From: Haliclystus octoradiatus
Lineage: Eukaryota > Cnidaria > Staurozoa > Stauromedusae > Haliclystidae
Direction of reading: 5' to 3'
Assembly (NCBI GenBank): GCA_916610825.1
Contig: OU744446.1
Location: forward strand, 32,592,225 to 32,656,224
Length of the DNA: 64,000 nucleotides
Shown here: positions 7,201 through 54,189 of the stretch, in pieces
Position numbering within the stretch: position 1 is the stretch's first letter
Layout: each line of letters starts with the position of its first letter
The notes under the pieces: model-generated
What the model was told of the DNA's origin: nothing
Database searches by the model: none
The model's input: the letters and a program-made list of their open reading frames with translations, nothing else
Translations under genes and position numbers: made by a program

Positions 7201-10200
7201 CAGATGGCAGAGCAACCGAACTTCAGGTCGGATCATATTTGATCGTCCGTGGTTCAAATCCCCCTAAGGTCAACTCAGCCTTGACTTTATCTGAAACATC
7301 AAATGAGTACCATCTGCGGATGGCGGATGGAATGGTCCAGAGCGAATTGCATTGTGATTAGCTGCGGCGCATCGTTGCGCATTGACAATCAAGACGTATC
7401 TGCCATGAAATCTGTTGACATTGATCTGCAGTGTCGCGGCTGAGATCAACAAAGAGCGTTTAAAATCATTGCTCTCAGCGAAAAAAGCCACTCATCTAGA
7501 AATAGAAGAGTGGTACGGGTGCCTTCAGTAGGGCGACACCGTCTACATTTATTACAATTATTCCAGATTTCCTAGAATCCAGACTATTCTCGAAATTTAA
7601 ACAATCATGTTGTAAATTGCATTGTGACATGTCATATCTTCATTTCTTCAGATCAATTTTCTATCACAAATAAATGTGAACTTGGTAAGTTTTAATTTAT
7701 TTATTAAGATGTACTCTGTACAGTGAAAATATAAATTATTTAACTGTCTTGGCAAAAGTAGTTCACAATTTTATGCACATTTTATGATTAGTTTATGGAC
7801 CTCATGAGCTATTAATGGACCATTTATCAATGTTCATATACATTTCATGAACACTTAATTTTCAATAAAGTAAAGTTAAATAGCTTTTTCTTGGGCAGGA
7901 GTTTCTCCATCAGCTGATTGTCATTCCTTTTCGAGCACTTTGGAGGCATATTTGCAACATGGGAACAAAGATGGCTGACGCAAAGGAATTATTTTAGCTC
8001 TCTTCTCATTGACAATTTCAAAATTATTTGATCTCTCCTGTAAACTCTTTTGTAATCTAAACTCTAAACAATATGTTCTCACTGTCATAGAAAGATAGTT
8101 TAAATAGGATTTTCCTGCCAGGGAAGCGAGATTTTGTTCATAGGATCACAATTATTTTCAAACATTTATGAATAATTTAAAATCACACCGAAAGTCAAGA
8201 AAATGTAAAAATTAAAGAAAAATACTATTTACCTTCAAATACGATTAAAAAAATAGATTTTAAACTCAAGGATGATGCAACTTGAAATTGGTAGTCATAA
8301 ATAACTCTTTTATCGAAAAAAATTCTGTTTCATTTAGAAACAAAAATTGCTCAAAACGTGGCTTGAAATTTTGCGGTTCTAATGCCACTGTTTTGGTACA
8401 TTGCGTCAGCCATTATGGATGCCCATGGTCGCTATGTGTTTCCATGAAATTTGGCAATGGAATCAGCAGTCTATGGAAGTCTATGGTCTAAAGGAATAGA
8501 GCCCACCATCCAAGTACCAAGACCAAACAATGATGTAGGCCTAGACAAGACAGCAGATTTACCGTATTGTTATGTAGTTTTTTCTCTAATTTCAAAACAT
8601 TTTATGAATCTTTATTATTGATCAACCTAATGAACTCTTTCCGAAATTGGGTCTCTTTTTACATTTATGATCTTCATAATCTGTTTTTGCAAGTGTTCTA
8701 TTAAGATGTTTACTCGTCCATTGACAATACATAATATGTGTTAAAAATCTGAACTGATTTAATTTTGAAAATTGAGATCATCAAAGCCTTAAAAAGAAGT
8801 TCTGTTTCTTGACAATTCTATTTTATTTAAATAGATTACAAACCTTCAATAAATGTTCACATATTGTAATCTATCTATCTACTATCGTTTCAGATGTTTC
8901 CTCTACTGTAACTTCTGCAAAATTTAATTTTGTTGATCTTGCTGGTTCAGAACGACTTCATCATTCATTTAATCGAGGTGAAAGGTTCCGTGAATCTGTT
9001 TCAATTAACAGTGGTTTGTTATCACTTGGTAATGTCATCAGCATATTATCAGATCCAAAACGTCGTAACTTACATGTACCATACAGGGATAGTAAATTAA
9101 CACGTCTGTTGAAAGATTCACTTGGTGGAAATAGCAAAACATTATTAGTGTGCTGTGTTAGTCCTTCTACTTCTAGTATGGATGAGAGCTTAACAACATT
9201 GAAATTTGCTCAAAGGGTACGTTTCTGTAATGACAAGTTTAATTTTTTTTTAGAATATAACAAATGTTTTGAAACAATGTGCATGAAATTTGCCTCGATC
9301 TGTCTGTCAGTCAGTCTGTCACAAAATGTGAGACCCTTGGAACATTGTTCACTTATCCAATTGGTGAATGTTTCCAATTTCATGTCTCAAATGAGATTTG
9401 TTTTTCAAATGTTATTCTACTCACTGATTATATACTAGAATATATTAATTGTGGATATTGTCAATATGATTGAGAAGCCACAACTCATGCCATCTTTGAT
9501 ATGAAATTTAAGAGTTTGTGACTGTGAAAGTGCCCAGTCTTGAGTGAAAATGAACACGTCATGAATTGTTCATGAAATGTTCATGAAATGTTCGTGGAAT
9601 GTTCATGGAATGTTCATGGAATGTTGGTAAAATGTTCATGAAATGTTTGTAAAATGTTCATGAAATGTTCATGACATATTTATGAAATGTTCATGAAATT
9701 GTTTGTGAAATGTTCATGAAATGTTCATGGAATGCTCATGGAGTGTAGGGGAGAGCGGGGTGAATTGGAACAAATTTTCTTAAAAAAATTATTGCTCCAA
9801 AACGGCTCACGCAAAACTCACAATTTTGGTATCGATTTGTAGGAAATTGTCTGAAGTTTATAATGCAAAATACCTGAATATTGTCAAATCAAAGTTGAAA
9901 CAATGTTTAAAGGAAGAATGACATTTTTTCAAAACCGCGATTTTGCGAAAATGTGGGGTGAAACGGAATGACCACAAATTTACCATTATTTCATCGAATT
10001 TGTTCAAATAAATTGAGTATCATAGCTATTGAGCCTTTAAAAATTGATATCAACAATAATAAATTAGATAGATAAAGAAACTTACTTCCAAATATAAATT
10101 TATAAGATTATAATTTTCCATTCAAAAAAATGCGTCTCCGTAAAACACGATAACATTTTCCCGTACTAGTATAATTTTTCAAATTTCAGTTATAATTGAG

Positions 10201-13200: not shown

Positions 13201-16200
13201 CTTGACCAATATTTTATTGTTTTTTTTTCAGCTCTGCTATTTGCAAAGAACTTGTTAATCGTATCACTGAAATTCAACATCTGCTTAGCTCAATTCTTCT
13301 ACAAGATAATATTGATGCAAGGACTTTTATCAAATTGAAAGAATGGAAATCCAGCATACGGCAAATGAGTACTGTTGTTGATGTATTACAAATATTTAAT
13401 GATGCCATGGAACAACACGAAAAAGTAAACGCATAGATCCATCATTGTTAAATATGCAGAGAATACCCGATAACCTATACATTTTCTTTGTCATACTGCT
13501 GTATGATATACATCAATATTTTGATACACCAGGGCGTAATATCCCTACTATTTTTCACTATGTCTTGATATTCACACATCTTTTCAATTACAAAGTTTGA
13601 TTACAGCGTATCCCCTGCGAAAAAATGTTCAGTTCATGAACTTTCTGGCAATTTCGCATTCATAAACCAGTTCATGAACCGGTTCACAAAGTATTCATGA
13701 ACTTTTTGTGACTTTTTATATCATAATTGCATAAACCAAATGTTGCTAATGTCAGTAATACTTTTCTGATATTTATTTGCAAGGAAATCTAGAGAAAATA
13801 GAAAGCAAATAATTTTAGGATATTGAATACTAACATTAATCTCTACCTTTCAAGTGAACGGAATATGAAATATGTACCTGGGGATTGTTCAAATGCTTTA
13901 CCGTATTATGCTCTATGCTAGACAATATATCAGTACAGGTAATTTTATATTTATTTTAGACGCACAGTCGAAGCTTGCAAACAGATATCAATGTCAATGA
14001 ACTTGAGCAAGAGAAATCCGATCTAACAGAAAGGTTGCATACCTTAGAAAAGGAAAACACAAGAAAAGAATGGCTACTCAATGAAAATAAATTAAATTTA
14101 GTTGATATTGAGTATGAATCAGACCATGAATTGACGTTGGTTGAAGATGTCACTGAAGAAAACAACCACACAGGGTCAATCAATACCAAAGGTATGTGTA
14201 CTACTGCAATAATATTTGGTAAAATGTTATAAAAAGGCATTGACCATTATAGACAGGTGGCCTTTATATACAGTGTTGATTTCAATGAAATCATATGTTC
14301 GTATGTTCGGTTTATATAAAGTAATCTGTTACATGCGTGTAGAGATTTACACATTAAAATTCGGTGAAGTAGAGATCGTAATTTGCTCTTTTCGACATTG
14401 AAAAAGCATTGTATACGGTGTCTTGCACAATATTTTTATTTGTGAAAGTTCTGTGAAAATATGCCGTATGGAGACTTATGAGTTTCTCCAGGTGCAAAAT
14501 GGTAAGAAAATACAAATTTCTAAATTGGCGTCAAGATTGTGTAACAGCACATAACAGTTTTAAGCGTTGACAGCTTAATCTAAGAACAAGAACATAATAA
14601 CACAACCCCTAAAACGGAAAGATTGCAAAGATATCAAACTCCTTCAATTATTTCCATTACTATAAAATGCCATTCTAGTGCACAGAGTGAATTTTCCCGT
14701 AGACTCAAGAATTCAGGATAGTGCCCAACAAGATTTTAACATTAGTAGTCATTGGCATTAACAGAAAGCAGGGTTCATATCACACTTGAAAGAGGGCAAC
14801 CATCTTCAATTAGTTTACAGCAAAGCTTTGAGATTTACCCTTGAGACAATAGGGTCACTGCAGAGGTCATTATCTGGATTGTTATTACTTCATGGTTCGA
14901 TTTGCAGTTTTTATACTCTTGTTGCGGGCGAATGTTAAACTAACTAAGGCTCGGTTTGACATTCTCTTGCGATTTCTGCTTAATAACCGAACACCTCATC
15001 CACCATGAAGTAATGTCTGTGTAATAATGTGAGTAGATGTTTTTCTTTATATAAAGTAGCCACATTGCATCAGTATTTTATCAGTATTTTATCAGTATTT
15101 TATCAGTATGTACTGTAATAGCAATCACTTTCGCTTTGTGTAGTCAAACACAATATACCAAAATCAGCTCCAGATCAAAGAAATACATTATATGCTGAGA
15201 TGGATCGTAAAATTCTTCAATCTAGCCCTGGTGCATTGGGATGTGACAGAATCATTTCTCGTTTCCGTGCCGAAAGTCAGTTGCTTGCATTGGAACTCAT
15301 GAAGCAAGATTCTGTTGCATATGATGACGATAATTTTAGTAGTGATGATAATGATGTCATTAAAGAACAAGACACCATTAAGGAAGCCTCTGTTATACCA
15401 ACGTAAGTACAATTACAATGACATAATTATATAAGATAAAACATGCAAGACAAGTGTTTACTTTGAACTGGGAAGCAAACATGATATTCCACTATCCCCT
15501 GTGAAATGCCATTGATGATTTTCAAATAGCCCATTTCATGAACAGTCCATTAAAAAGTTGATAAAAATCAACCATTTGATGTTTATGAACTTTTCATAAT
15601 TTTTTCATGAGTGGTTCATTAATTTAAAATATATTGTTCATGAACTCATGACATCTTTCATAGGAAAATAAATACACATAATCTTTGACCATTTATGAAT
15701 ACTGGGGCTCCTTTTAATTCGCAATAGTGACCAGACTTCACTTAAAATGATTTGTAAACGTGTTGTTCTCAAAGTCAAAGGGGGGTAAAAATGGTTGGTG
15801 TCTGAAACTTGAAAATCAAAGCCAAAATTCTAAAAATAGCTTTGAAAAATGTAAAAGATTAATCATTAAGTAATCTACTTCTCTTGTCTATATTGAATTT
15901 AGGTTTGTAACTATTCTCTTATATTGTTACAGTATGTTTAAGCCCTTTATATCGAATCCTTAACATTACAATAATTTGGCGCAGGTGCTTGGTTGGTGGG
16001 AGGTTGGCAACAAAATACATCAGCTTAGTTGACCAATGGCAGACCTGACACCACCAACCAAGCTCCAGTCACACTGCTAAATCAGTGGAATTCCTAGTTA
16101 TACTTACCTTTGTCAGCCAACAAGATATGGGAAGGAAGGGGAAAAAGTGAATAATAAACAGCGTAAAATATCAGCAGCACGTGAATTAACCACATCAACA

Positions 16201-27986: not shown

Positions 27987-28047
27987 CAGCTCTGCCAATG
28001 TTTAATCGGTATTGAGCACTATCACATCTGACGATAGATAAATCTAT

Positions 28048-28651
<604 letters not shown>

Positions 28652-29546
28652 TAAAAGAGCATTGACTATCTATATTTTAAATGACCATGCTTAGTTTTAT
28701 ACAATTTTATTGCCAATAGGTTTTATATATATATATTCATGTACTTTTGATATTATAAGAATGAGATGTTGCATTGCCATTCAAGTTTGGTCTGCTTTAA
28801 AATGTCACGTATTTAATAAGCTGAAAAAACACAAATAATTCAGTTTGGCATTGCAATAGCATAATAAAGTGTCCCTTTATAAGCGTCATATTACCTAGCA
28901 TGCGCGCACACCTTACTTGAACATCTCACTTCCTAGTTCTTCTAGTTAAAATAATAACTTCTTAATTAATAACGAAGAAGAAAGATTTTCAGGTAAGGTC
29001 TGCACACAGGCTACATATTACCATGTTATCAACTCTGATATTGAAAAGACGAATAAACACAGAATATTTAATAGGCAAGTGGCTTATTTTTCTCTTGTTC
29101 AGTCTGTTACAAATTAGTAAAGGCTACAAACTCAAAGACTTCAGATACAATTAGAAGCTTAGTACTGTTTATCCCATTATAGCCTAATTAATGCTATTAT
29201 GATGCTGCTGACTACCTCAATACATATCACATGCACAATCTCTGCTCAATACAATGCGATTCCCTGGCCTAAAACTGTGCATATTGTGAATAAACGCCAT
29301 TTAATGTGATTATTAATTGGAAAAATATTTATGAACTGCTCATTAAATGTTAATGGTATGTTCATACCTTTGTAATTCTGAAGCAAAGAAGTCATGTTCC
29401 ATTTATGATTGGTTTTCCTTGACTTGAGCATATAGAAAACAGGATCCAGAGAGTATTCCCTGAACTACTCGCAAAATACTCATCAAGTGATGTGTGAAGT
29501 ATATAGTTCTTAACTAAAGGATTTAAATGATATTTTACCTACAATC

Positions 29547-29630: not shown

Positions 29631-32600
29631 CTACAAATGTCAATAAGAACATACTTTTTATTATATTCAGATGATCAATGTAACTTGTGATGTGATGTGA
29701 TGTGATATATATTTGGTCATAAAAAGCATACATATTTATAAAAAGTAAGCTAAATAAATTATGACCAGGGTCAACCCTTAAGCAAAACTGCTTGTTTGTT
29801 TGGGTGACCCCATAATTATAATCCTCAAATAGTTGAGAAATTAGGTATATAGGCATATGAATAATATTATTAGATCTAAGTAAATAGAAATATTATAGTA
29901 CTTAATATGGTTTCACATTTTTCATTTTGAATTAAAAGTAATATATGGTAGCCTAATAAGTGTAATAGTGTATATGGTACTTGGGGTTGAATAAAAGTGA
30001 ACGTCCTAAAAATCCTAACCCTTTGGAGAATCCCTCGTGAAAACATGAAAATGATGATAATGTAAGTTTATTAAAAACAGGCCATTCATCATTTCTAAAC
30101 AGTTCATGAACTCTTCATTTTCACAGGGAGCTTGAAAGAGGAGCAACTTCAGAAGAAAATGACAAATTCTGATTTCTGACAAATTTTTATAGTGCAACAT
30201 CACAACACCTATGAATAACAGCTCAGGAGTTCATGAACTGTTCATGAACAGTTTGTGAAGGTTCATCATGGAAATTGGGGCCATTATAACGTTTATGAGA
30301 TGTTCATGAACTCCTGAACTGTTTTTCGCAGAGGAAGTGCAAAAAACCCGTTGAGTTCATGAGCTATTCACAAACCACATGAACTGTTCTTGAACCATAT
30401 GAACTGTTCTTTAACACTTCATTAACTTCACAAACATTCATATAATGTCTATGAACCGTTCATGAAAATTAAATGGCCTGATTTTCCGTAACTATTCATG
30501 AACTATTTTCACAGGGCCGTAGATTTCCTTCTTTTGATTTAACTAATGACGTAATTAAATTCAGCTGCTAAATAGTTGATCAAATCGCCAGGGCGAGGAT
30601 TGATAATCACATAATTATCTTCCCTATATTTTCTTTCTTAAAATTTTTCATGACTATGTTACATTATTACTCATTTTTTTTCCAGTTTTTATTCTCCAAC
30701 TCAAAAATGATTCAATTTATAAATTAAATATTTGCTTAAATCCCAATTCAAGATGCAGAAGACCTCGAAAAACGCAATTGTTCAAAAGTTTTGATATTCC
30801 AGAGATATTGCATTTTTTTGCGATATACGTAATTAATTTTGATTGGCTACATCGTTTTTCTTTCATGCAAAGGAAACTGATTGTCAGAGGCTATTATCAC
30901 TATGGCAAAAAAACAGACGGGGAAATATTTCCACAGTTTCTTACTAACAAATTTTGCTTTATATAATAAATATTATTAATTTATATATTACCTTAGATGT
31001 ACATTGAAGATATATGATAGCCAAATAAATAGATGAAGCCTCTGCAACATAACCAAGGACCAATGCAGTCACGCCCATAACAGCACCATGGATACTAAAA
31101 TTTTAAGCACAAGATACAATCAAAATCACGTCAAAACTTATGCAAGGCTTATAACAGAATACCAGCTTTTGCAAATATCAGGTATAGCAATCTGAATGAA
31201 TGATGACAATAAATAACTGAAGCAAACAATCAAATAGTGAAACCTGTATATAGCAGCCAGCTACAAGAGGTAGATACATTGACCACTATAGAGAGGTGGC
31301 CTTAATATACAGGTTTGATTCAATAGGAAATACTATTTTAAACATTGCAAGGGTGACCACTATAGACAGGTGGCCGCCGTATAGAGGTAACCGTTATTAC
31401 AGGTTCAACTGTATGGTTTCAATACAATAAGATAATGTTACGAAGTGTTGTCGTATCATTAGGCATATGCATCATCCTAATAGAACAATTGGGCATTTTC
31501 ACATCGGCGATGTTGGTGTTCCATAACAATACATCCTGGGGAAATTTTCAAAATACATCACCAGCGTTATAAATCTTTTCTTTAGATAACTCTAGAGGGA
31601 ACTGTTGGAGACCTACTGAAAAAGCTCTATACAAAGGGAATATATAAATTGATGATTCAAGTTCATTGAGTCCAATAAGATGTAAAGGTTGATGAAAATG
31701 ATGAATTTTTAGAGAACTTGATTATACTGTGGAAAAACGACAAACCATGATTTTGGAAAGATACATATATTATAATCAATATAGAGTATAAAACAGAGAC
31801 GAGGCAAAACGGAAAAGGCTTTGCCTCGTCTCTGTTTTATACTCTATATTATGCTCTGTCCTAAAAAAACATTGAGCACTTTCATATACATGTGTGTATA
31901 AGAGTTTACACTCAATACAATTAATTTTTTTAATTAATTATTATTATATTATAATCAATAGGCCTACATATCACTGTGTTCTTGGTACATTAAAATACAT
32001 TGAACAAGTTAAAAATTCCTGTTTTAAAATTGACCCGTTGATCATTGACTAACACTACTGACATCAAGACCATGAAAAAAGCTTGAAATTTCATGGCGCA
32101 TTCATGGCATTTTCATGGCATATCCACATTTTAATATAGTAAATACGAATGTTTTCATCGTTTTCAAACTTTTTCATGGTTACAAAATTTGTCAATTTCA
32201 CTTTTTCGCATTTCCATGGTGTTTTCACAACTCTCTCATGGCATTTTTAGGGTTATAGTGTTGGTAGTGTAAAAGAGATCATTGATTTGGACCTTGATCA
32301 TTATCAGGCAATAAATAGCTATTAAAAAATATTACAATGTGTTCATAAATTGACCTCTAAAAAAGCATTATATTTACACAAAGACAAATTGCAAATTTTA
32401 AAGAAAATGATTGATTAACTATAAAATAACATTGCAGTATAAATAATAATCAATAAATAATCAATATATTAGTACAGCATATTGTCATACTCACCCATGA
32501 CGAGGTAAAATAAATCCTAACATTGTTACAGTCGCCAATCTTGAGACAGGACTCACATACAACATCTTTGTATTCTTAACTCGAATAAAATGTCCACTTG

Positions 32601-35600
32601 CTATTGCTCTAAAAAATACTGCAAACAAAAAAAATAAGGCAGATCAGTGCTGTTTTTAGCCCTGGCGAAAAATGTTTTGTGTTCATTAACGGTTCATGAA
32701 CAGTTCATGAACTTTACCAGCATCTATGAACAGTTTGTCAAAAACACCCTATATACTTTTTATAAAATTTGACCAATAATGTTCATGAACTGTTTTCATA
32801 GGGTCATTTCGTGTAATTGCTATTTCATTATGTTTATATCGTATATTGGTAAGTAGTTCTTGTGTTAAAATATCTCTAGTAATTATTGTTTGCCATTGTT
32901 TAAAAGTATAAAACCGTTCCAATAAATTAAATAGACAAATAATTTTGATTTTTATATAAATATTCATGTAACTTTCAACTCTCTCTTTTTATCTCGCCTG
33001 AAGATGATTTCAGATTAAAACAAAACTGTTGCGCCAACTACTGTGTGTTTTTTTTACCGGATATACCATCATCAAATGTTTGTCAAGTAGGCATTTACAA
33101 AGATCATTAATAATTACAATTTGTATTGCTCATTAATAGTCCATAAACAATTTAACTGTTTATGAAGTTTTGCGGGGAGTGGCAAAGCATGTTGTTATCA
33201 CAAAGATTAATTAATCCAATCCAGATCACAACTTCGAGGATCATCTTTGTTAGGAGTGATTTTGAAATCAACAAACAATATATCCCTTTGCCTTTTTCAG
33301 ATTGTACTAATTGTCACGAAACGTTTAGCCTCTTGGAAAACTAATACTGGAATACTTCTAATTTTGTTGTAAAGTCCCCCTGTGAAAAACAGTTCAGGAG
33401 TTCACGCACAGTTCATGAATAGTTCATGAATAGTTCATGAAGGCAGAAGGTTAAATGGCCCCAAATTGTCATGACCTCCAGAACTGTTTTCGCAGGGGTC
33501 AGGTCCATAAAGGGGTTCATAGATCATAATAACGATAATTTTCTTCTAAAATAACCTAGGATTGCAGGATTCCTCTAATTGTTTGACCTAGACGGTTAGG
33601 CCACATCTAATTTTTCTTGATTATATAATGAAGATGGTCCGTGGCTAAGTCTATAGAAGGCATACAAATTTGTAAATGATTATATACCTGGTATACAAAG
33701 AGAAGAGAAGATTTTCAAAGGCATACGACTTTCAATATAAAACTCTTTATCCACTTTGTTGATTTCCGCTAAAAGTGTATCAGAGACTCCAGGAATCCAA
33801 AACATAGAAAACATCCACTACAAAAATATTTTCAAATTAAATATTCAATTCATGAATAAGTGAAACTTTCGGTGAAACTCTACTACTGTTTCCATGACCC
33901 AACAAAGGTTGCCTTCTCGAATCCTAGAGTCATTTCAACATTTTGTTACACACGTAGGCCTACAGGATAATGCATTGACAACAGCAATACATTCCACTGA
34001 CATGTTAATCCTGTACACATATTTGTAATGACTAAGTTGAGGTTTGATCCATATACCATTAAAAATATCAATTTATTGTGAATATTCTCTAGCCTTCCAG
34101 AATCTACTTTTGTAAGAACCTGGTTGAAACGTTGTCAATAACCCATGTTCAAGCAATTAAATAGATACTGCAATACCCATGCGAAAAACAGTTCAGCAGT
34201 TCATGAACGTTAAATGGCTCCAATTTTCCTGAACTGTTCCTGAACTGTTCATGAAAATTTGAGGCCAATTAACGTTCATGAACTGTTCATGAACTCCTGA
34301 ACTGTTTTCGCAGGGGTACTACTGAACAATTTTTATTCTTTTAAAGTCTTCCAATGGGGTCTCTTATGTAAAATCGCTTTAAATAAATTGTTGACTGTGA
34401 TGTAAAGTAACTAAAAAATAGGTTGGTCATTATTCAATTTCTCTTGAACTACTTTAGACACAAATATAAAATCATTTTAAATTAAAATAGCCATATTGTA
34501 TATTTAGCATGCTGTATTTCACATTTTAATGTTTTCACGTCTATAATATTTACAATCTGATTTGAGTTATATGGCTCTCCATACTAAACAAAAAATAATT
34601 GTTTCCCTTGTGTATTTTACAAAAAGATAAAACTGTACTTGTTACGGTTTTTTCAATGTTAAACTCATCCCACTGATGAGGGTTGGCACTTCAGGTGCTT
34701 GAGTGGTGGGAGCTACGAGTTTGCGGTTTGCGTTGGACCAGCTAGAGATCCTGTCACCATCCTCAAGCACCTGTCACATTGATAATTAGTTTCTGAGTTT
34801 CTGGTGAGTTGAGGCATCGTTGGAACAAATAATAGCGAATAAAACGTTAGCGTAATGATCGATGCTACGTGCTAGCGAATTCAAACAAGAACGACACTGA
34901 TACCTTACATGAGGTACCTCACCAGTCACCTTTCTTATAAGGTCATCAAATTATTTTGCTCCGTAACTCCTGCGCATACTTCCACACCGCTGACCTTGAA
35001 GCAACATTTTGAGTAAGTACTTTACTACATAAACGTGCGAGATTGGTATAGTTTGAAATAGCCTAAATTACAATGTAGCCCTAGCCCATTTCATTGTTTG
35101 AAATGTCCACTTGGGCAATCAGTAGGCCTACCGACGTCATCTAATATTATTGAGAGCTGTATTATTACCAATAGTAGGTCCTAATATGCAAGATTGGAAT
35201 TATTTTACTTACAACCATAGATAGAACAAGACAAGATGAGTAAAATGGTACTAATTGATTCATGTTTCGTTTTGGTTGATCCCTTTCTGGTTTCTACAAA
35301 CAAAAATACAATAGTCTCAGCCAATGTTTACAAGTGCAATGCCAGGTAAATTATTCTTTATAGTACATAGTAATGAATTATGAAAAGGGTGGCACAAACA
35401 GTCCCAACCTAAAAACGAAGTTCACTGAAGCTACAGCAAAATTCCAAAGTTTTCCAAAGTTATTTACTATCATTTATTTCTTTTTTCTACAATTCAAAGA
35501 AAGATAATTATATCATCTTCATTTTCCGAATTTAAACATTTGGCCATCAGAAATATGAAAACTGAACAGTAATCTCAAAACAATTGGATTTCAACTCATA

Positions 35601-38600
35601 AATTGATAATAAATAGCTCAATAATTACAGTCCAAACATCACGCATATGCAATTATTGATTTAGTTCACTTATATAGTTTTGGAGATTGCATTTAATTTT
35701 TGTTAGAAAGCTTCTGCTCTGATTGTTAATTAGTACTTTTTCCTAAAATAAATTCCCATGCACAAACTGATTGTGGACATTGGAATGGAGTACAGTTATT
35801 AAAAAAAAGTATTACATGTGATTAAAGGTTGGTTTGCAAAGCAAAAAGTTTTGTGCTATCTTGGGTATGAAAAAGACATTTTATCTGAGAGGCGAGAAAT
35901 TTTAACTATCTCTACTACTATATAAAAATGACCTTCAAAACTTTGTACACGTTAATCTCAAAAACCATGCGAAGAAAACCTGAACATCATACATCATTCG
36001 AAAGCTCTCTTTCGTGGTCTGAACATAGGCTATATTTAATTTTGAAAAATCAACTGAATTCGGCGTAAGGAGCAAATGCGTGCAGGCAATAAACCGTGAG
36101 TATGATCAACTGTTTTGAAATCTGGAACAAAACCAAAAACATAAATTGGGATGATGACGAAACTACTTCTACTTTTGTGATTATTGATGTTTAATTAACT
36201 GTCAGTTAGATTCTACTTTTCCAGATGTACTCTCAGCTGAAAATCATTTATAAATTTCATTACAGAGAGTGCTGTGTTTACGAAATTCAAAAAAACCTAT
36301 GAATTTTGAACAATATTTGGTTTCAACCGTTTGGATTGTAAAAACATCAAAACATTTGTACAAAATTGACAGAATTTTACTTTAAATAATACTTTTAAAT
36401 CATGAAATATTGTTAGCATAAGCAGGACAGGTATGGAAGGATTATGACATTTTAATTAACACACTTTCATTAGCTTTTAATAATTAAAAACTTATGTACA
36501 TTGTATACATATAAGGCTTATGAAAACTGAATATTTAACATTGACAATCTGTTTATGAACTGTTGAATAGTTGATATGAACAATTCATAAACAATTCATT
36601 CATTAACTCATTAACATCGTTTACAATGGTAGAGTAGATGCGTGCATAGACAAGGAATGATATCTAACCCAGGACTAATACATAGATATTTCAATAACTC
36701 TGCTATGAAATTCTGTGGACACTCACTAAGTAGCTAGATTCACTTGGATGATAAATAGATTCAAGTTTATCCCCTGCGAAAAAAGTTCACGAGTTCATGA
36801 ACGTAAAATTTCCCAAACGCTCATGAACTGTTCATGAATTGTTTATGAAATTTCAGGCAATTTCACATTCATTAACCAGTGTATGGACAGGTCTATGAAG
36901 TGTTAATGAACTCTTTGTGTGTGTTTATGAACTGTCCATGAACCCACAAAAAAAAAGTTCAAGTACTGTTTATGAACTGATGGATTTTTTCACAGGGGAA
37001 ATGACAATGCCGTCAAGATTCAATCAAACTTAGCATTTAATTGGTGACAAACAAACAAGTAGGTTATAAAGAAATTCAAATTGGATTCAGTAACATTTTA
37101 CAGCATTCTAAAATTGCGTACTAATTTACAAGTCACAAAATTTTCACCTACTTTTATAAAGACTGACTCTACTGCACGCAATTCGTTCAACCATCCATAT
37201 GGAACATGAGCAATTGGATAACAGACTGACATAACAGCAAGAGCCTATAATAACCACCAATGTAAATTCATAACTGTAATGTATATTGCATGTGAGTGTG
37301 AGATAGCAACATCCTTTCAAGCACTTTTAGGTTACAATTTTAGCATAAATATTGTGAAAGTGACTTTTTATTCTAGTAAAATCATCTGTTTGAAGTTGAT
37401 TCAGGCAAATTCCATAGGTTTATCCATTGTTATCAAAGTGCCTATGCCATATTAACAGATGACTCCCAACCCCTGCGAAAAAGTTCATGAGTTCATGAAC
37501 GTTAAATTGCCCAAAAGTTCATGAACTGTTCATGAACTTTTTGGGCAGTTTCACCTTCATGGACCAGTTCATGAACCGGTTCATGAAGTGTTTATGAACT
37601 CTTTGTGACTGTTCATGAACTGTTCATGAACTCATGGATTTTTTTCGCAGGGGAACCCCTGCGGAAAACAGGTCAGGAGTTCATGGACAGTTCATGGACA
37701 GTTCATGAATGTTAAATGGCCCTAAATTTCCATGAACTGCTGTTGAAGGTCCATGGACTGTTAATGAACAGTTTATGAAATTTTGGAGCCATTTACCATT
37801 CATGAACTGTTCATGAACTCCTAAACTGTTTTTCGCCAGGGAAAGCAATCAATAATAATTGGATGAATGGTGATCAAATTCTTCTTTGGGAAACAAAGTT
37901 TATAGATATTGAACAGCAAACCCAATTTCATGCGCAGAATATATAACTCCTGTAAAAAACTCACAAGTTTATCAACAATTCATGAACTTTTTATAATGAA
38001 TTCATAAACAAATCATAAACTCAGTAAATGGTTTCTAAGGGATTAAGTTACATCATTTACCTTGGTTGCTTCTGATTCTGTGTAGCAATCAAATCTATCT
38101 CTTATGACAAATAAATTAACAAGAGGACGACTAATTCTTTGTACAAACTGAACAGAGGCAAGTGGTAGCCAGAACAAGACAACAGCAATATAAGTGGGTG
38201 ATTGGTAGCTTGAACCGTCCTCCTTTTGAAGGAATAAAAAATAAGAACAGATTTAGACAAGCCAATTGTAAGAAGAATGAGAGAACCATTTAGTTAACCA
38301 TGGTACAACCCCTGTGAAAAAATCCACGAGTTCATAAACATTTTTTTGTGGGTTCATGAACAGTTCATGAACTTTTGGGCGATTTCAGGTTCATGAACTC
38401 ATAAGCTTTTTTTCGCAGGGGAATACCTAGATTTGTTCCTGAAGTTTTCTCACTGCTAAGACTCCGGTGAAAAATTCATATAAACTTGACTCGAGGCTCG
38501 TAATATAGTTGACACACAAACGTTTATTGCCTAATGCTCCCAGAAATGACGGAAAGAAACACCTCTTTAATATCTTATCTGAATAATATTTATCTATTGT

Positions 38601-41600
38601 GCATCAATTACAAACTTTCTTAACTACTTTCAAGTAATGTTATGGTTTCCGTATCAATAAAAATAAAATATTTGTGCAGACCTTTTGAACCTACAGTGAG
38701 CTGTTTTCTTTGTCTTTGGAATGCTTACTCCTAAATGCCAACTGGCTTGCGTATTGAATACTTACAAACTTACATATTTTAGGAGACAAAATTAACTGTT
38801 TTATTTGATTGTAAATCGTAAGGGCCTACTAATTGTGGCGATTTTGATCAAAAAACAAGGAACTTGAGACAAATTCAGAACACTTGTATGTGAATATTGT
38901 TGTTCAGGAAAATATGTTGTAAAGAAGATAGGCCTACAGTATATTCAATTATGGTCTACTTACGGTAATTATCACTTACATTGTCTGGTGCTTCTTTCCA
39001 TGTTGGTTGACGGTGAATTTTGTAATAATAGAAGATAACAACAATGAGCATCCGTGCTATTGTACCACAGTAGACAGCACAAGTAGGCACAATAAGTGCA
39101 TTTGCAGCAGCATATTTAGACTGCAGCAAGATAGCAACAACAATGATCTAAAAACAAAACATTAGATAAAATTAGAAAGTATACTACTTAGTACTTTCGT
39201 ATTAAAATAGTTTCTACATGATGATTTTGTGAGGAAATCGAAAAGGTATTCAATTGATATTGTCGTAAGAAATTGTGATGATGATAATTCTCATTGTATT
39301 TATAGCGAGAAGATAAGAATTCCAGTAGGATCTGTTTCATAGTGACTATTGTAGGTCTTCCTATTTCATATAGCAGCATGCAACAAGAACAACAACAACA
39401 GGAGACAGCTCATTGAATTCTGAGAAGAGATGAAAACTCTTAAATTGAAAGATAGCATTACAAGTTGGATAACAGCTACAAAAACATCATTATAACATCT
39501 TTTCTGCTTGAAATTAATATAATTTCTTAAGAAATACATGAGATAGGCTACAAGGGCTTTTAGTAGTTAAAAATCGTTTTTTTCTCTTGAAAAGGCTCAA
39601 GCAGCTAACAAACACATCTCACAAATGGAGATGATGTGAACGTAAAACAGCGGATGCATAGTCCAAATCGCACACCACGGAAGAAAATTGACACATTTTT
39701 GACAGAAAAAATAAATTCCTCCTTTGAAAAATTTTGTATCTCAAGTGTTTTTTAATAACTTTTATTCATTTCAAGCACAATAAGTTGTCTCAAAAGTTAT
39801 TAAAGTGCACATGACACAAAAAGAGTCTAAAAGGTGTTGGATAGCCCTGATTATAACTTCAGCTAACAGAATCTGTGTTATCATGCTTCAATGGTGTCAT
39901 GTGCACTTTAAATGTAAATGACCAGAAAATTCATCATTTCTTCACTCATTTATTCATTCATTCATTCATTCATTCATTCATTCATTCATTCATTCATTCA
40001 TTCATTCATTCATTCATTTCGTAAATAAACAATAAATAGAAACAGAAGGAGTGGATTCAACATGTCATCTCTATCAACTTCCAGCATGATGGTCAAATAA
40101 GCTGGAATTGATTGGAATGATTAATTTCATTACCTGTACAACAATATCAGCTATAGATGCACAACTGACGATGACACTGTGCTTGAATTTTATAAGGATG
40201 CCAGCATGAACCCATGCCTGGAGAAGAAAAGATACAAAATAATCATCCACACCCCTGCGAGAAACTGTTCAGGAGTTGATGAACAGTTTATGAAAAGTTT
40301 ATGAACGTTAAATGGCACCAATTTTCATGAACTGTTCGTGAACTGCTCATGAACCTTCACGGACAGTTCATGAACAGTTCAATGAACACAGTCTGTAGGC
40401 CTATAGACTATAGACTAACAGTCCGCCATTGTGGTATTTTCAATGTAGGCCTATCATATTTAAACTAAGAACATCAATCAGCAATGGATAACAACATTGG
40501 TGGAAATTAATGACTACAATGTTTGACATAAGATCATATTTTGATAGACAGAATGAAACAAAAAACTTCTAAAAAATAATCTATTTGTTATGTAAACATC
40601 GTGGCTTTCAACGCATGTGTCAATGCTATGTTATTGATTTTAAGAGAAGTATGATGATCCATTGATTTTTAATAATCAACAGTAGAAATGTAGATCGTAA
40701 CCCCTGCGAAACACTGTTGAACATGAACTTTGGAAAGTGACTTTCATGAAACATACATGAAAACCTTAGGCTATAAACATTTCATGAACAGTTCATGAAC
40801 ATTAAATGGACCAGTTTTCATGATTTATTCATGAACAGTTCAAGTAAAATGGGTTAGACCATTGAACTGTTTTCACAGGGAACTTCCATTTTCATCTAAA
40901 AATGTGACAATTAGTAAGAAGAAAAAGGAAAAGAAAAGTATTTATTTCTTTCATTGTTGTGGAATACACCGTGTTTGTTCACATTTAAACTAAGTATCTG
41001 TAAATCAGTTCACAGGAAAGACCATCAAAGCTCTATACAAACTAGATGATCTTTCCCTTCCAGCGTGAGTCACACTGCAAGAATTGGGGAATAGTACACC
41101 GGACAGGCAAGGGGAGAGTTGTACCCCAAATTTGTGTAAAATTGTATAAAAAATCTGTATTGAGTAGAAATGATCAGTAGCCTAACAATCAATTCTTATG
41201 TCAATAATATCGTTGGAGATAATACTCACAATTCCATCTAGCAGAGGAAACAAACAAACATAAATAATGGCTCTTTTTGCGAGAACAGCAACTGGACCTG
41301 AGACGTGGTGTAATTGATTGATTATTACATCACCAAAATCAGTCAAACCTTAAATAAAGCAGACAACATATTGAAATGGAATGAAAATAAATAAAATATA
41401 TACTTGAAAAAATTTAACTGGGAATATCATATTAATTATTCACCATTTGTCGTGTGGGTAGGCTATCATATCACCATGTAACTAGGCCTACCTATTTTTT
41501 AACCCATCTACTTTGAATCAGTTACATCAAAAGCTGACTGATTCTCAGTTGCATCGAGGTCCAGCTGTGATGTATTGAGGTCCATTCAACTATAGGTTAT

Positions 41601-43005
41601 CTCAAATACAGAAACAGATTTTATTTTTATTCAAACTAAAACCCCCCTGCGAAAAACAGTTCAGGAGTTCCTGAACTGTTCATGAACAGTTCATGAAAAT
41701 TTGGGGCCGATTAACGTTCATGAACTTTTCATGAACTGTTCATGACTCCTGAACTGTTTTCGCAGGGGCCGTTCTGTCCAAAGTCACCCGCGTCTGAAGT
41801 GACCCCAGTCTCTCCTACTGATAAGTAGGAAAGATATTTTTGTAGATGATCATATAACATCCTTAAAATGTGACAACGAATTGATCAAGGAAATTATTCA
41901 AATATCTTACAATTACAAACATTATGCATATCCCCTGCGAAAAACAGTTCAGGAGTTTATGAACGTTAAATTGCCCAATTTTTATGAACAGTTCATGAAC
42001 TTTAATGAACCTTCACAAACAGTTCATGAAAAATTCCATGAAAATCAGGTCATATTAACATTCATGAACTCAACAATTTTTTCGCAGGGTGGAACCTCAC
42101 CTGTGAGCAAGACAAAGCACAAAAGCCCAGATGCAATCGCAGACAATAATATTAGAACTTTCCGTCTGTCTTTTTGACAATTAACAAGAACCAATGACAC
42201 TTTCTTGAAATCAGACAGTAAACCACTAAATAGTTTTGTTAGAACATATGCGATACCAAACCCAGCATAATCGAATATAGCAGTGTTGGAATTTGCAATT
42301 CCTCTATATAATGCCTATTAGAGGAAGAAAAAATAAATCTATTATTGGTTACAACATGACATATACAGTCAATATTACATAATACGTTATCGTATAATTA
42401 CGTTTTATCGATTAATAAGTCAACTAATTATCATTGAATAATACGTTATCACGCAGTGCGCTTTACCGCACAATACGTTCTGCATAGATGATCCCGAGAG
42501 AGCTTTTCATCACTTAGCGCATTAATATTATAATTTGATGCTTTGTTTTGCTGAGGTGTCAACAATCAAATCTATTAAAGCGTTATAATCTACCATGGTC
42601 CGTTTCAAATTTACAGGAGATCTTCTTTATCATGCTAGATTCGCTAATTAGCATATAGCAATTATTGAAAATGTAATGCAATGGTAACCATGATCAATCA
42701 CGTGACAATAGTCAGATCACTATGGGAAAATACAAATTTGAACTGGCAATAATTTATTGCCAATAAAGTTAAATTTGGGGTTACTTAACCAATTCATACT
42801 CTGACTTTAAATTTGCTTTAACTTAAATAAATTGTAAGCATATCATCAGTATAATTTATTTACCAATAATATTGTCAATATTATTATCATTAATCCAGAG
42901 ACAACTTACCTGCTCTCCAATGTCAACAAGCACATTTGTTAATGCTAATGGTATAAAAAATCGAACAAGTGAAAGAAAAAATTGTAATTTTGGATGACCT
43001 TCCAT
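29547..43005 (-). CDS. ANKH: ANKH homologue (progressive ankylosis protein), 12 exons
   Basis: Multipass membrane protein of the ANKH family (MATE-like fold), linked in vertebrates to export of ATP, citrate and pyrophosphate and to control of mineralisation. Joined exons give 485 residues (human 492). Signatures along the protein: FFIPLALTNVLVDIGEQ (near N-terminus), KLFSGLLSDFKKVSLVLVN, VIINQLHHV, AWVHAGILIKFKHS, FVQRISRPLVNLFVIRD, YPIAHVPYGWLNELRAV, GIHGAVMGVTALVLGYVAEA, then an acidic cytosolic tail. Exons, 5' to 3': 43005-42910, 42314-42101, 41348-41230, 40217-40134, 39147-38980, 38222-38061, 37244-37152, 35293-35213, 33817-33688, 32618-32495, 31094-30992, 29630-29547. Every junction is GT-AG and frame-consistent. 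The start codon follows a possible acceptor (atatcag), so a non-coding first exon is possible. A 4.7 kb transposon lies 197 bp upstream. Confidence 0.96.
30218..30334. mobile_element. GTTCATGAAC-family MITE
   Basis: Body caggagttcatgaactgttc on the left and its complement on the right, with the right end gtttttcgcagagg. Contains the family core (ggccattataacg). Confidence 0.75.
30341..30516. mobile_element. GTTCATGAAC-family MITE, diverged
   Basis: gttgagttcatgagctattc at the left, aaattaaatggcctgatttt core, right end ctattttcacaggg. It adjoins the copy at 30218. Confidence 0.6.
30992..31094 (-). CDS. ANKH: ANKH exon 11
   Basis: Encodes IHGAVMGVTALVLGYVAEAS and YLAIIYLQCTSK, matching human [20 protein letters not shown]. 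Phase 2 to 0. Confidence 0.94.
31235..31413. mobile_element. MITE, family TACAGTCAAACCTGT, intact copy
   Basis: Ends tagtgaaacctgtatatag and ttacaggttcaactgta, with two internal ggtgaccactatagacaggt-type units. 179 bp. Confidence 0.75.
31778..31850. repeat. perfect hairpin, 31-bp arms, 11-base loop
   Basis: Arms 31778-31808 and 31820-31850 are exact complements around acggaaaaggc-type loop sequence. It may be a very small MITE; a small-RNA hairpin is possible but nothing else supports it. Confidence 0.85.
32047..32270. mobile_element. MITE, family GACATCA..CATGAAAA
   Basis: Starts aacactactgacatcaagac and is rich in tttcatggcattttcatgg, ending agggttatagtgttggtagt. Same family as the insert at 18490-18672. 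Confidence 0.55.
32495..32618 (-). CDS. ANKH: ANKH exon 10
   Basis: Encodes FFRAIASGHFIRVKNTKMLY and SRLATVTMLGFILPRHG, matching human [20 protein letters not shown]. Confidence 0.93.
32660..32803. mobile_element. GTTCATGAAC-family MITE
   Basis: Left ccctggcgaaaaatg, internal acggttcatgaacagttcat, right gttcatgaactgttttcata then ggg. Confidence 0.7.
33377..33498. mobile_element. GTTCATGAAC-family MITE
   Basis: Ends CCCCTGTGAAAAACAGTTC and GAACTGTTTTCGCAGGGG with the core ggttaaatggccccaaattg between. 122 bp. Confidence 0.85.
33688..33817 (-). CDS. ANKH: ANKH exon 9
   Basis: Encodes WMFSMFWIPGVSDTLLAEIN and SRMPLKIFSSLCIPG, matching human FVMFWTPNVSEKILIDI and VVPLRIFSFFPVP. Donor gtatat. 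Confidence 0.93.
34176..34316. mobile_element. GTTCATGAAC-family MITE
   Basis: Left CCCATGCGAAAAACAGTTC, right CTCCTGAACTGTTTTCGCAG then GGG. The two halves are inverted copies; core acgttaaatggctccaattt. Confidence 0.88.
34692..34773. mobile_element. small inverted-repeat element, family CAGGTGCTTG
   Basis: CAGGTGCTTGAG at the left is mirrored by CTCAAGCACCTG at the right. Second copy of the type seen at 15982. Confidence 0.55.
35213..35293 (-). CDS. ANKH: ANKH exon 8
   Basis: Encodes KPERDQPKRNMNQLVPFYSS and CLVLSMV. Weakly conserved, but the frame, length (27 codons) and splice sites fit human TAAHIKKFTFVCMALS. Confidence 0.85.
36771..36998. mobile_element. GTTCATGAAC-family MITE, long form
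   Basis: Ends CCCCTGCGAAAAAAGTTC and TTTTTTCACAGGGG. 228 bp. It has the long-form core with gttcatgaattgtttatgaa and tgtttatgaactgtccatga. Confidence 0.85.
37152..37244 (-). CDS. ANKH: ANKH exon 7
   Basis: Encodes SVCYPIAHVPYGWLNELRAV, matching human [20 protein letters not shown]. Donor gtaggt. Confidence 0.95.
37470..37653. mobile_element. GTTCATGAAC-family MITE, long form
   Basis: Ends CCCCTGCGAAAAAGTTCATG and TTTTTTCGCAGGGG, with ccagttcatgaaccggttca near the middle. Two bases separate it from the next copy. Confidence 0.9.
37656..37841. mobile_element. GTTCATGAAC-family MITE, short-form variant
   Basis: Ends CCCCTGCGGAAAACAGGTC and TTTTTCGCCAGGG, core gttaaatggccctaaatttc. Lies back to back with the preceding copy, separated only by AA. 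Confidence 0.88.
38061..38222 (-). CDS. ANKH: ANKH exon 6
   Basis: Encodes VVLFWLPLASVQFVQRISRP and LVNLFVIRD, matching human [20 protein letters not shown]. Acceptor caaaag is purine-rich but gives the only open frame. Confidence 0.93.
38309..38421. mobile_element. GTTCATGAAC-family MITE, internally deleted
   Basis: Ends CCCCTGTGAAAAAATCC and TTTTTTTCGCAGGGG. 113 bp, lying about 90 bases upstream (in gene direction) of ANKH exon 6. Confidence 0.85.
38980..39147 (-). CDS. ANKH: ANKH exon 5
   Basis: Encodes IIVVAILLQSKYAAANALIV and a membrane segment, then YYYKIHRQPTWKEAPDN; matches human [20 protein letters not shown] and YYKNIHDIIP. Confidence 0.94.
39951..40018. repeat. (TTCA)n microsatellite
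   Basis: About seventeen perfect TTCA units. Confidence 0.97.
40134..40217 (-). CDS. ANKH: ANKH exon 4
   Basis: Encodes AWVHAGILIKFKHSVIVSCA and SIADIVVQ, matching human [20 protein letters not shown]. Confidence 0.95.
40252..40387. mobile_element. GTTCATGAAC-family MITE, right end lost
   Basis: Left CCCCTGCGAGAAACTGTTC, core gttaaatggcaccaattttc, then repeated gttcatgaac units. No CGCAGGGG follows. Confidence 0.75.
40701..40880. mobile_element. GTTCATGAAC-family MITE
   Basis: Ends CCCCTGCGAAACACTGTTG and GAACTGTTTTCACAGGG, core cattaaatggaccagttttc. Confidence 0.8.
41230..41348 (-). CDS. ANKH: ANKH exon 3
   Basis: Encodes LTDFGDVIINQLHHVSGPVA and RAIIYVCLFPLLDGI, matching human YYIINKLHHVDESV and RAFLYLAAFPFMDAM. 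Confidence 0.95.
41644..41768. mobile_element. GTTCATGAAC-family MITE, near-consensus
   Basis: Ends CCCCTGCGAAAAACAGTTC and GAACTGTTTTCGCAGGGG, with aaaatttggggccgattaac in the middle. 125 bp, almost a perfect palindrome. Confidence 0.92.
41932..42089. mobile_element. GTTCATGAAC-family MITE beside the ANKH exon 2 donor
   Basis: Ends CCCCTGCGAAAAACAGTTC and AATTTTTTCGCAGGG. Its right end is 11 bases from the splice donor of ANKH exon 2 (intron starts at 42100). Confidence 0.88.
42101..42314 (-). CDS. ANKH: ANKH exon 2
   Basis: Encodes ALYRGIANSNTAIFDYAGFG and KLFSGLLSDFKKVSLVLVNC, matching human ALNRGIAA and [20 protein letters not shown]. A MITE right end lies 11 bases beyond its donor (gtgagg). 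Confidence 0.95.
42910..43005 (-). CDS. ANKH: ANKH exon 1 (start codon)
   Basis: Encodes MEGHPKLQFFLSLVRFF and IPLALTNVLVDIGEQ, matching human RFLVPLGITNIAIDFGEQ. Donor gtaagt. 32 codons. Confidence 0.93.
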
Positions 43006-49302: not shown

Positions 49303-52300
49303 GTATGGATAAGATTGAGCCGCCTCCTGCATTCCATATTAAGGAATCAAACCATTCTCGTGCCTGGAACATTGATGCCAGCATCTCAATGTGTTTTGGT
49401 TGCCACAGAAAAAGATGAAAATGTGACAAGGTGAAGAGATATATTCTATTAGCCAAAATAGGAGCAAAAGATAAGGAAATATATGACCTATATTTTCCTT
49501 TGATAACGAAGAACAAAAGATGACCTTTGATGTTTTGGTTTAGAGCCGTTCCGTGAATATTGAGTTCCACGAAAAAACATCACTTTTATCAGACATCAAT
49601 TCTAACATCAAATATAATGACTTTGTCACAGTTGTCAAACAATTGAACTCAAAATGTGAATTTTCAACACTCAAAGATTCTCTCATTATAAAATATATGA
49701 TTGTTGTGGGTGCTCTTGAAAGTGCTTTGCGTGCAGCGGGATGATGGGTTAGCCACTCACAGAAGCTATCAGTGCAGGATATGCCGCAGAAAAAGAAAAA
49801 CGCAAGCAGACTCAATCCTCAACAACGTTCCAAGACTGCTCCATCTCGAGGCAACGAGGTGATGATATTAAAGTGTCCGGGGTAATTGTCCAGCTTATGG
49901 AAAGACGTTCCAACTGTCATTGCCAACGGTCAAATCATTTTAATTCATGTTGCCCATCTACGTCTGCCCATCAAATTCAATCTGATAGTCCCGCGTTCTG
50001 CCTCAAGCAAAATTCTAAATTTTAACATTGATTTCAAACTCGATACTGGTGCTCGTTTTAATATTCTTTCAGACAAGATGTACAAAGCTATCATCTCACC
50101 ACCAACTGCATCTCAGACATTTGTCAACGTCTCCACTTACAATGACTCTCAAATCCCAATCATTGGTCAGCGAGTCGCTACAGCTGGTCTTCGTGATAAA
50201 CCATAACCATTTAAAGTTCGATTTCTTGCTTCCAGTGCTGCCTTAGCAAGTCAATCAATCAATCCATTGCAAATCAATTTCCTGACTGCTTTGTTGAATT
50301 AGGTTGCCCTCCTAATACTCCTCATATTGAATTCGATCCTGCTGTTTTTCTGCAGTTGTTCCTCCTCGCAACAACCCTTTTGCTGTGTTAATTCTTTGGT
50401 AATTTTCGAAAAACTCAATGCTGCTCTTCGCATCTGTTTCGAATCAGCCCAACATTATCGATTACCCACTGCTGAAGATATCATGTCCCAAATGACAGGT
50501 GCATGCTGCGTTTCTAAGATGGACGCCACATCCGGCTACTGGCACATACCTGTATAATAACCAATATTCCAAGAAACTGTTGCTAACCTCATATCGGGAC
50601 ACTCTCAAAATGGCATAGTTGTTTGGGGTCGATCAAGACAAGAACACGACAAATGCCTCATTGATGTCATACAGAAAATAGAGCAAAGTTGCTCAAGCTT
50701 AAAGTGTTTATCCCAGATATTGGGAGATTGCTTCTTTAGAAAGAGAAAAATTTCCTATTCGTACATGATCTTCCTGTGTTTTTACTTTGCGCGATCATTT
50801 CTGTCCTTCAAATATGCAGTCAAAGTGACGATTTTGGGTTAATTTTGTGTCTCACTCGTTTTCCTCGAACAGGAACCCACTTATTTTCAACAAGAGAGTT
50901 TACACCGGAAAAAACATTAAACTTTTTACTTATTTGTCTCTAAATAAAAAACCGCTAAACCAAATGACAATCTGCTTTCGGAATGAAATTTTAACGTTCA
51001 GCTGAAGATTTAGAGCTGTATTTGATCAATAGTCAAGATCCAGGTAAAGAGATATAAGCCTCTAAAGTCAGAAGTTTTTAGTTTTAGATTTTTCTCACTC
51101 AAGTGCTCACACGATTAACACCTCTTTGCGAATTCGTCTAAGCATATTCGGCATAGTTGATGCGTATTAAAAATAGTCACACACCTTCAATAACCAGCAG
51201 CGATAACCTGCTTAGACGAAGTCGTAAAGAGGTGCTAATCGCATGAGCACTTGAGTGAGAAAAATCCAAATTAAAAACTTTTGACTTTAGAGGCTTATAT
51301 CTCTTTACCTGGATCTTGAATGTTGATCAAATATAGCTCCAAATCTTCAGCAGAACGGTGAAAATTTCATTCCGAAAGCAGATTTTCATTTGGTTTAGCG
51401 CTTTTTTATTTAGAGACAAATAAGTAAAATGTTTAGTGTTTTTTCCAGTGTAAACTCTCTTGTGGAAAATAAGTGGGTTCCTGTTCGAGGAAAAAGAGTG
51501 CGGCACAAAAACGTAACTTTGATTGCATTTTTGAGGGGAAAATACTTGCGCAAAGTAAAAATACAAGAGGAACATGTACTTATAGAAAATTTTTCTCTAT
51601 CTAAAGAAGCAATCTCCCAATATCCGGGATATACACTTTAACCTCGGAAAATGTTCTTTCGGATGTGGCAGCCTTAATTGTATTCCTTGTCACTTTTGTG
51701 TTCCTCAAGTCCCACTTGAAATATTCTCTACACTCAGACATCTGATAGCTTCACCTCCCACACTGTAATTCTACGATCCAATCCAAGTTTATCATTACGT
51801 CTCCATGTTGATGCTAGTTAAGAAGGCCTTGAAGCAAGGTTTGAAAAGGAAATCAATGGTAACTGGAAACCTCTTGGTTTGCATCTCATTCTTTAACTTC
51901 TGCGGAGAAAAAAAGAGCTGAATATTTTCACCAGTATTTGCATAACCAATATTTCAAAGTTCTTCACGACAAACAACCTTTGCTAGCTATTTTCTCAACA
52001 AAACCTATCAACCACTGTACACTTCGTATTCAAATGTTTATGTTTGGTCTACAAAGATACGATTTTGAATTGACATATGAACCAGGAACGACAACACTTG
52101 TGTCAGATGCTCTCAGCCAAGCTCGAACTTGCAATTACAACTCCAAGTCAATACCACAAGACCAAGATGTAGAACTCTATGTGCATGCCATGATATAACA
52201 CATGCAAATCAGCTACAGAAGACTAACACAGCTGAAGTCAGAAACAGAAAAGTATCAAGTGCTGGTGATCCCTGACTTCTCGCATCAAAGAAGAGCTAGC

Positions 52301-52861: not shown

Positions 52862-52933
52862 GGGGGTGTAGCTCAGTGGTAGAGCGCTCGCTTTGCATGC
52901 GAGAGGCCCGGGGTTCGATCCCCCGCACCTCCA
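52862..52933 (+). tRNA. tRNA-Ala (anticodon TGC)
   Basis: Complete cloverleaf: acceptor GGGGGTG/CACCTCC (one G-T pair), D arm GCTC..GAGC, anticodon stem CTCGC/GCGAG with loop TTTGCAT (TGC at 52894-52896), T arm CGGGG/CCCCG with loop TTCGATC, discriminator A. A short T run follows at 52937. No intron. Looks functional rather than SINE-derived. Confidence 0.95.
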
Positions 52934-53244: not shown

Positions 53245-53452
53245 TGTCGTATAGCTATAGCTGACTTTGCTATAGCGACATTGAGTCCCAGCGAACACAA
53301 CGACGGTCAAATTGGAACTAATTTATTATTCAAACTACACATAGATAGATTACAGGAATTACATAGGGTGATGACGTCAATTACACATAGAATTACAACT
53401 TCACATATACAAGACAGAACAGCTTGATTATTACAAATTACATTACACAACA
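53245..53452 (-). repeat. 3' LTR of the TRIM
   Basis: 208 bp, near-identical to 53982-54189; preceded (minus strand) by a purine tract. Confidence 0.92.
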
Positions 53453-53981: not shown

Positions 53982-54189
53982 TGTCGTATAGCTATAGCTG
54001 ACTTTGCTATAGCGACATTGAATCCCAGCGAACACAACGACGGTCAAACTGGAACTGATTTATTATTCAAACTACACATAGATAGATTACAGGAATTACA
54101 TAGGGTGATGACGTCAATTACACATAGAATTACAACTTCACATATACAAGACAGAACAGCTTGATTATTACAAATTACATTACACAACA
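53982..54189 (-). repeat. 5' LTR of the TRIM
   Basis: 208 bp; followed (minus strand) by the primer-binding-like site. Confidence 0.92.

Follow-up and report, generated by a model that had tools for sequence, protein, structure and literature searches.

Palindromic miniature repeats of the stalked jellyfish Haliclystus octoradiatus have the features of non-coding cut-and-paste DNA transposons

The genome of Haliclystus octoradiatus contains a dispersed family of short repeats that are very probably miniature, non-coding DNA transposons of the cut-and-paste type (MITEs), a reading founded on target duplications at their flanks and on related sites that lack the element. Copies have common terminal inverted repeats, CCCCTGCGAAAA(A)CAGTTCAGGAG, enclosing a body of TTCATGAA palindromes that are mostly 11 bp apart. 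With this family the genome of a stalked jellyfish gains a mobile family. The assembly, jrHalOcto1.1, is described as having nine chromosome-size scaffolds (longest 39,977,743; N50 28,991,210; N90 20,733,292) (PMC9975415). The family was noticed in an initial annotation of a 64-kb stretch of this genome, referred to here as the window.

The palindromic unit singled out in that annotation is a genuine repeat, as GTTCATGAAC occurs in 31 exact copies in the window against 0.09 expected, a number reached in none of 100 shuffles. Allowing up to 2 mismatches in 12, we called 14 left ends (about 0.9 per shuffle) and 18 right ends (about 0.8 per shuffle) in the window. Nine two-ended elements were delimited by such ends, while the reversed window and each of 30 dinucleotide shuffles contained 0. 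Eighteen of the 31 exact units fall inside these nine elements and 13 outside, some of the latter in half copies. The ends had been described correctly, as had the 125-bp copy at 41644-41768, and the reported core motif is present, though the arms have two cores, GTTAAATGGCCCCAAATTT and GTTAAATGGCTCCAATTTTCC, of which it is one. The initial count of at least 16 copies or half copies is borne out only in part: we recovered the nine two-ended elements, a further element whose left end has decayed and several half copies, and a total of 16 is not established.

The nine elements, none of which is assigned a strand, are located between 33 and 43 kb of the window. Two of them, supported by their ends and flanks, lie at 33377..33498 (122 bp, 2-bp duplication TC) and 34176..34316 (141 bp, TA), and a third, at 36771..36998 (228 bp, no duplication scored), belongs to a second subfamily with a GTAAAATTTCCC core. 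The remaining six lie between exon matches of the ANKH gene: 37470..37653 (184 bp, second subfamily, AA), 37656..37841 (186 bp, AA), 38309..38421 (113 bp, AA), 40701..40881 (181 bp, decayed, no duplication scored), 41644..41768 (125 bp, CC) and 41932..42090 (159 bp, no duplication scored), the last of these 17 bp from an exon match. AA alone separates the elements at 37470..37653 and 37656..37841. The element with a good right end and a decayed left end occupies approximately 30207..30334, its left limit being approximate (end-profile matches 30334-30295 and 30217-30245), and half copies with a good left end and no right end lie at 40252..40390 and 13612..13740, with approximate right limits. 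At 9537..9766, TTCATGAA-type units form an 11-bp tandem array in which no ends were recognised. Strand is likewise unassigned for these four features.

The identification of ANKH in the initial annotation is upheld by six exon matches to PF07260 on the minus strand, at 42108-42326, 41221-41358, 40098-40220, 38983-39150, 38046-38186 and 37122-37244 (E values from 1e-9 to 5e-4, some of them weak), which place the gene at 37122..42326. Six of the nine two-ended elements sit between these matches, short of the 11 to 13 copies that had been ascribed to the ANKH introns; none of the nine overlaps an exon match, and the elements at 33-37 kb are 3' of the last match. The family explains at least six insertions between the exons of one gene.

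Two properties of the flanks, namely 2-bp duplications and empty sites, show that the family inserted as a DNA transposon. Our sample comprises 56 two-ended elements, some of them the window copies and the rest taken from loci that had been picked for a 21-mer match, for similarity to one copy or for density, and this choice of loci biases the lengths and copy number drawn from it; two elements of the sample, in locus L031, are tandem duplicates. An identical 2-bp duplication flanks 36 of the 56 elements, while 1,000 shuffles of the flanks gave 8.26 on average and never more than 18, so that the check for target duplications proposed in the initial annotation had a positive outcome. Longer duplications were seen in one element at 3 bp, in one at 4 bp and in none at 5 to 10 bp. 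The duplicated pairs are composed mostly of A and T, with AA and TA found ten times each, AT five times, TT and AG three times each, and TG, CT, CA, TC and CC once each. Absence of an exact 2-bp duplication from the other 20 elements reflects either decay or wrong end calls, an example of the latter being a 327-bp pair in L032 that is almost unit-free.

For the empty sites, the joined flanks of each element were compared with the DNA collected here, 23 of the 56 elements being set aside as having joined flanks that contain units. Related sites without the element, most of them with a single copy of the duplicated pair, were identified for 4 of the 33 elements with usable flanks. The element in L022 has one such site, located in its own locus at a distance of about 1.4 kb, which matches at 94% over 115 bp with a single TA and an alignment whose left side covers about 17 bases. 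Sites for the L023 element lie in the window at 51443-51638 (77% over 198 bp, with a gap-free junction and TT for TA), 21086-21170 (78%) and 50702-50910 (75%, where 2 additional bases lie close to the junction). Four sites for the L028 element (75-79%) have gap-free junctions, with a single AG in three and AC in one, and each of three sites for the L040 element (71-78%) has a single TA, with gaps elsewhere. The window stretches that provide the L023 sites (21086-21385, 50702-50910 and 51443-51638) are copies of another dispersed repeat. The target beside the L023 insertion (L023:1608-1630, CCCCTTCAAAAATGCAGTCAGG) resembles the element's own end; since the element-free window copies have a similar stretch, it belongs to the host repeat, and its likeness to the end is due either to chance or to target choice.

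The family extends throughout the genome (261,861,806 bases in 33 contigs searched). An exact 21-mer of two units is present in 6,283 copies (3086+3197) and the exact 23/24-base end, CCCCTGCGAAAA(N)CAGTTCAGGAG, in 1,474 (764+710), with 0 matches to the reversed control of either; a wider end pattern that admits both subfamilies matches 1,873 times (966+907; control 0). The genome search that had been proposed for the 125-bp copy, performed with window positions 41645-41767, returned at least 116 matches (40 of 515 candidates scored), some of them one place on both strands, dispersed over C1, C2, C4-C8, C10 and C11, which are the nine chromosome-size scaffolds. The initial annotation had allowed that the copies might turn out to have no common ends genome-wide; common ends were found, and together with the 2-bp target duplications and the empty sites they sustain its proposal of a MITE-like family. 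As the exact end pattern fits 26 of the 112 ends of the 56-element sample, the 1,474 exact ends suggest a total of some 6,000 ends, or about 3,000 elements, an estimate that is good to an order of magnitude only because the sample is biased. The family's exact end was not found in viral contigs, nor were three exact units found in bacterial or archaeal contigs, and papers that hold GTTCATGAAC seem, from their titles and the first lines of their abstracts, unrelated to any repeat family.

Within the copies, neighbouring TTCATGAA units (with up to 1 mismatch) are spaced 11 bp apart in 238 pairs, and 27, 26 and 21 bp apart in 40, 31 and 30 pairs, respectively. Lengths range from 65 to 361 bp (77-327 bp in the 56-element sample) and are graded at intervals of about 11 bp; they do not form the two classes first proposed, short (about 120 bp) and long (180-230 bp). 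Among 51 elements of 100-260 bp there is a length period of about 11.5 bp (R 0.53 against a null 99% value of 0.40); periodicity at exactly 11 bp is not significant (R 0.29), and the length ladder is therefore not clean. From 15 elements of 193-228 bp we aligned the 12 that have a GGCTCC core, the other three being without it, and found 84-98% identity to a 217-bp consensus and a mean pairwise identity of 89%. This alignment contains 68 gap runs, 36 of a single base and 1 of 2 bases, and 20 of the 31 runs longer than 2 bp are exactly 11 bp. Many long copies have the GGCTCC core near one end and a GGCCCC core near the other, with CCTCACAGACA between them. In the 125-bp window copy a single core remains; two units and no core are left in a 65-bp copy (L089:513-577), and a 361-bp copy (L090:1787-2147) has its core repeated by amplification. 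Copies of the second subfamily contain cores of the GTGAAATTGCCC type, and their terminal sequence tends to be CTCATGGATTTTTTTCGCAGGGG.

The two ends of a copy also tend to differ. An end with five A residues is paired with one with four in 18 of the 25 copies in which both ends could be scored (4 were A4/A4, 2 were A5/A5 and 1 was of another kind), in 9 of 9 copies under a stricter rule, and in all seven close facing pairs noted by eye among the first 100 exact-end places listed. This difference is a tendency and not universal, yet it supports an asymmetric founder, and the fact that both the ends and the arm cores tend to differ suggests that copies descend from such a founder with later mixing. 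Among 33 end matches outside the 56 elements that were inspected by eye, several belong to pairs missed by the rule and others to truncated copies. L040 contains array-like stretches, and L031:1500-2210 holds tandem copies of an element plus its flank about 194 bp apart. Two family copies, in L034 near 280 (minus strand) and in L089 near 8893, are broken immediately after their first unit by CAGGGTCCGATAAAA-type sequences that resemble each other, as though this position were a preferred one for another element.

The family is thus of a familiar general kind: its copies are short, non-coding and numerous, and have terminal inverted repeats, a target duplication of fixed length and empty sites, as MITEs do. 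What sets it apart from other MITEs, as far as could be tested here, is a body that consists of a ladder of self-complementary 10-bp units at a pitch of mostly 11 bp. Repbase holds unclassified DNA families that are defined by a 2-bp duplication, and these are similar in being defined by their ends and such a duplication. Copies of the present family share their ends, inserted with a 2-bp target duplication and are dispersed over the nine scaffolds; they were presumably moved by a transposase supplied in trans. Their lengths likely changed by slippage or unequal exchange between 11-bp units, because, of the gaps longer than 2 bp among aligned copies, those of 11 bp are the most frequent and because both the two-unit and the amplified-core copies exist. 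By analogy with TNPA in Spm/En, there is about an even chance that the units are subterminal sites for a trans-supplied transposase or accessory protein; such putative sites would occur about once per helical turn, each with twofold symmetry. The stepped range in copy length could allow one to measure how few putative binding sites suffice for mobility, and a host factor that binds the palindromes, if there is one, could give these thousands of sites an effect on the host. The initial annotation proposed, as an inference, that nuclear-receptor-like half-sites and TTCnnGAA in the unit could let copies spread regulatory sites.

Regarding the origin of the family, it is possible, though less likely than not, that its members derive from a CMC-type (EnSpm/CACTA/Mirage) element. 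The 2-bp duplication falls within the 2-4 bp given for CMC elements (PMC4482050), and this class carries subterminal repeats bound by a TNPA-like protein, TNPA being described as recognising subterminal repeats with a cis-acting role in excision (PMC2613891). CACTA/EnSpm elements with TNPA-bound repeats (PMC2613891) resemble the family in having inverted ends and, after them, short motifs that recur in both orientations, and a CACTA element at L089:1779-7562 is of the same plan, with inverted ends and then short repeats that face inward on both sides. However, that element has CACTACC ends (CACTACCAAC), a 3-bp TAT duplication and CCGTGAAAA repeats, whereas the family has CCCCTGCG ends, a 2-bp duplication in place of the 3 bp of the examples seen, and units that are each a palindrome. 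CMC elements have CACTA- or CACTG-type ends; the CCCCTGCG ends of the family are not of this type, and CCCCTG is no CACTA end. Moreover, the 8 of 36 PF02992 places that were inspected (L051-L058, with flanks of about 1.5 kb, beyond which the real ends may lie) have no left end and no matching end pair, L051 has two weak right-end-like matches of 10/12 bases that lack the preceding CTG, and one more place, in L089, has other ends (9.9 kb read). Other superfamilies were rejected on their duplications. PiggyBac, Kolobok, Tc1/mariner, hAT and MULE elements make TTAA, TA-only or 8-9 bp duplications, and the family's 2-bp duplications include AA, AT, TT and AG besides TA; the TTAA and 8-9 bp types are also at variance with the single match at 4 bp and the 0 of 56 at 5-10 bp. 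We consider it highly improbable that the family arose without transposition, by expansion of a palindromic 11-mer as a tandem satellite or simple sequence: the end-free array at window 9537-9766, the array-like stretches of L040 and the tandem copies with flank in L031 point that way, but this reading is contradicted by the ends that copies share, by their 2-bp duplications and empty sites and by the presence of matches on nine scaffolds. Satellite expansion may be a secondary growth inside copies.

Internal deletion of an ISL2EU transposon (PHIS superfamily) is an unlikely source of the family. ISL2EU elements occur in animal hosts and make 2-bp duplications, specifically AT in A|AT|T (PMC4482050), they are abundant in this genome, and in one ISL2EU-type family TTCATGAA units are clustered between the two genes. 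This cluster, at L044:2640-2805 beside the DDE gene, is like a MITE body without its ends, and it may represent either a nested copy, possibly a decayed one, or shared putative binding sites. The duplications of our family are not AT-specific, AT making up 5 of 36 against 10 each for TA and AA. At the one (left) boundary seen in each of two ISL2EU-type families, AT adjoins AGAGCG (9 of 9 copies of one family) or AGGCC (L063 and L064) and not CCCCTGCG. Comparison of the 16-base end with 20 stretches upstream of other DDE genes, on one side each, gave at best 12/16 (L070) and otherwise 11 or fewer, which is at the estimated chance level, and no ends matching the family were found in ISL2EU loci L041-L050 and L060-L067 or in these 20 stretches. 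The nine copies of the ISL2EU-type family at L042-L050 (C6, C11, C1, C4 and C5) contain reading frames for a 525-aa DDE protein and mostly a 917-aa YqaJ protein; near-identity extends over about 3.1 kb in eight of them and about 1.9 kb in L042, and this family has likely been active very recently.

PF13359 was detected at at least 150 places in the genome, PF09588 (YqaJ) at 96 and PF02992 at 36, many of the PF13359 and PF09588 places being close together. In the loci read for these three domains no transposase gene was surrounded by the CCCCTGCGAAAA end pair, and by eye no exact family end lay within 5 kb of any of the 11 PF13359 places listed for C1 up to 17.42 Mb. The larger transposase-encoding element with the same ends that the initial annotation proposed looking for was not found in the loci read, nor was any transposase-coding relative with the MITE ends, a weak negative from a limited search. 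Two candidates for longer elements were discarded: the end in L034, since the next 6 kb (L059) show no such element, and facing exact ends about 2 kb apart in L090 and L091, which belong to separate short copies. A further reading, which we regard as doubtful, is that the MITEs were moved by a transposase of an undescribed lineage whose 2-bp duplications at CCCCTGCGAAAA ends are relaxed and A/T-rich, and which acts with a dimeric protein loading palindromes about once per helical turn. If that were so, the body would be a nearly pure array of binding sites for this protein, and copy length would read out the number of sites that mobility needs, which is two in the 65-bp copy.

The window has further features beside the MITEs. 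A trinucleotide (AAT-type) microsatellite of about 640 bp at 28016-28662 gives long one-residue runs in several frames, and a 208-bp direct repeat is present at 53245-53452 and 53982-54189, its copies 99% identical and 737 bp apart. Rfam identifies one tRNA gene in the window, on the plus strand at 52862-52933.
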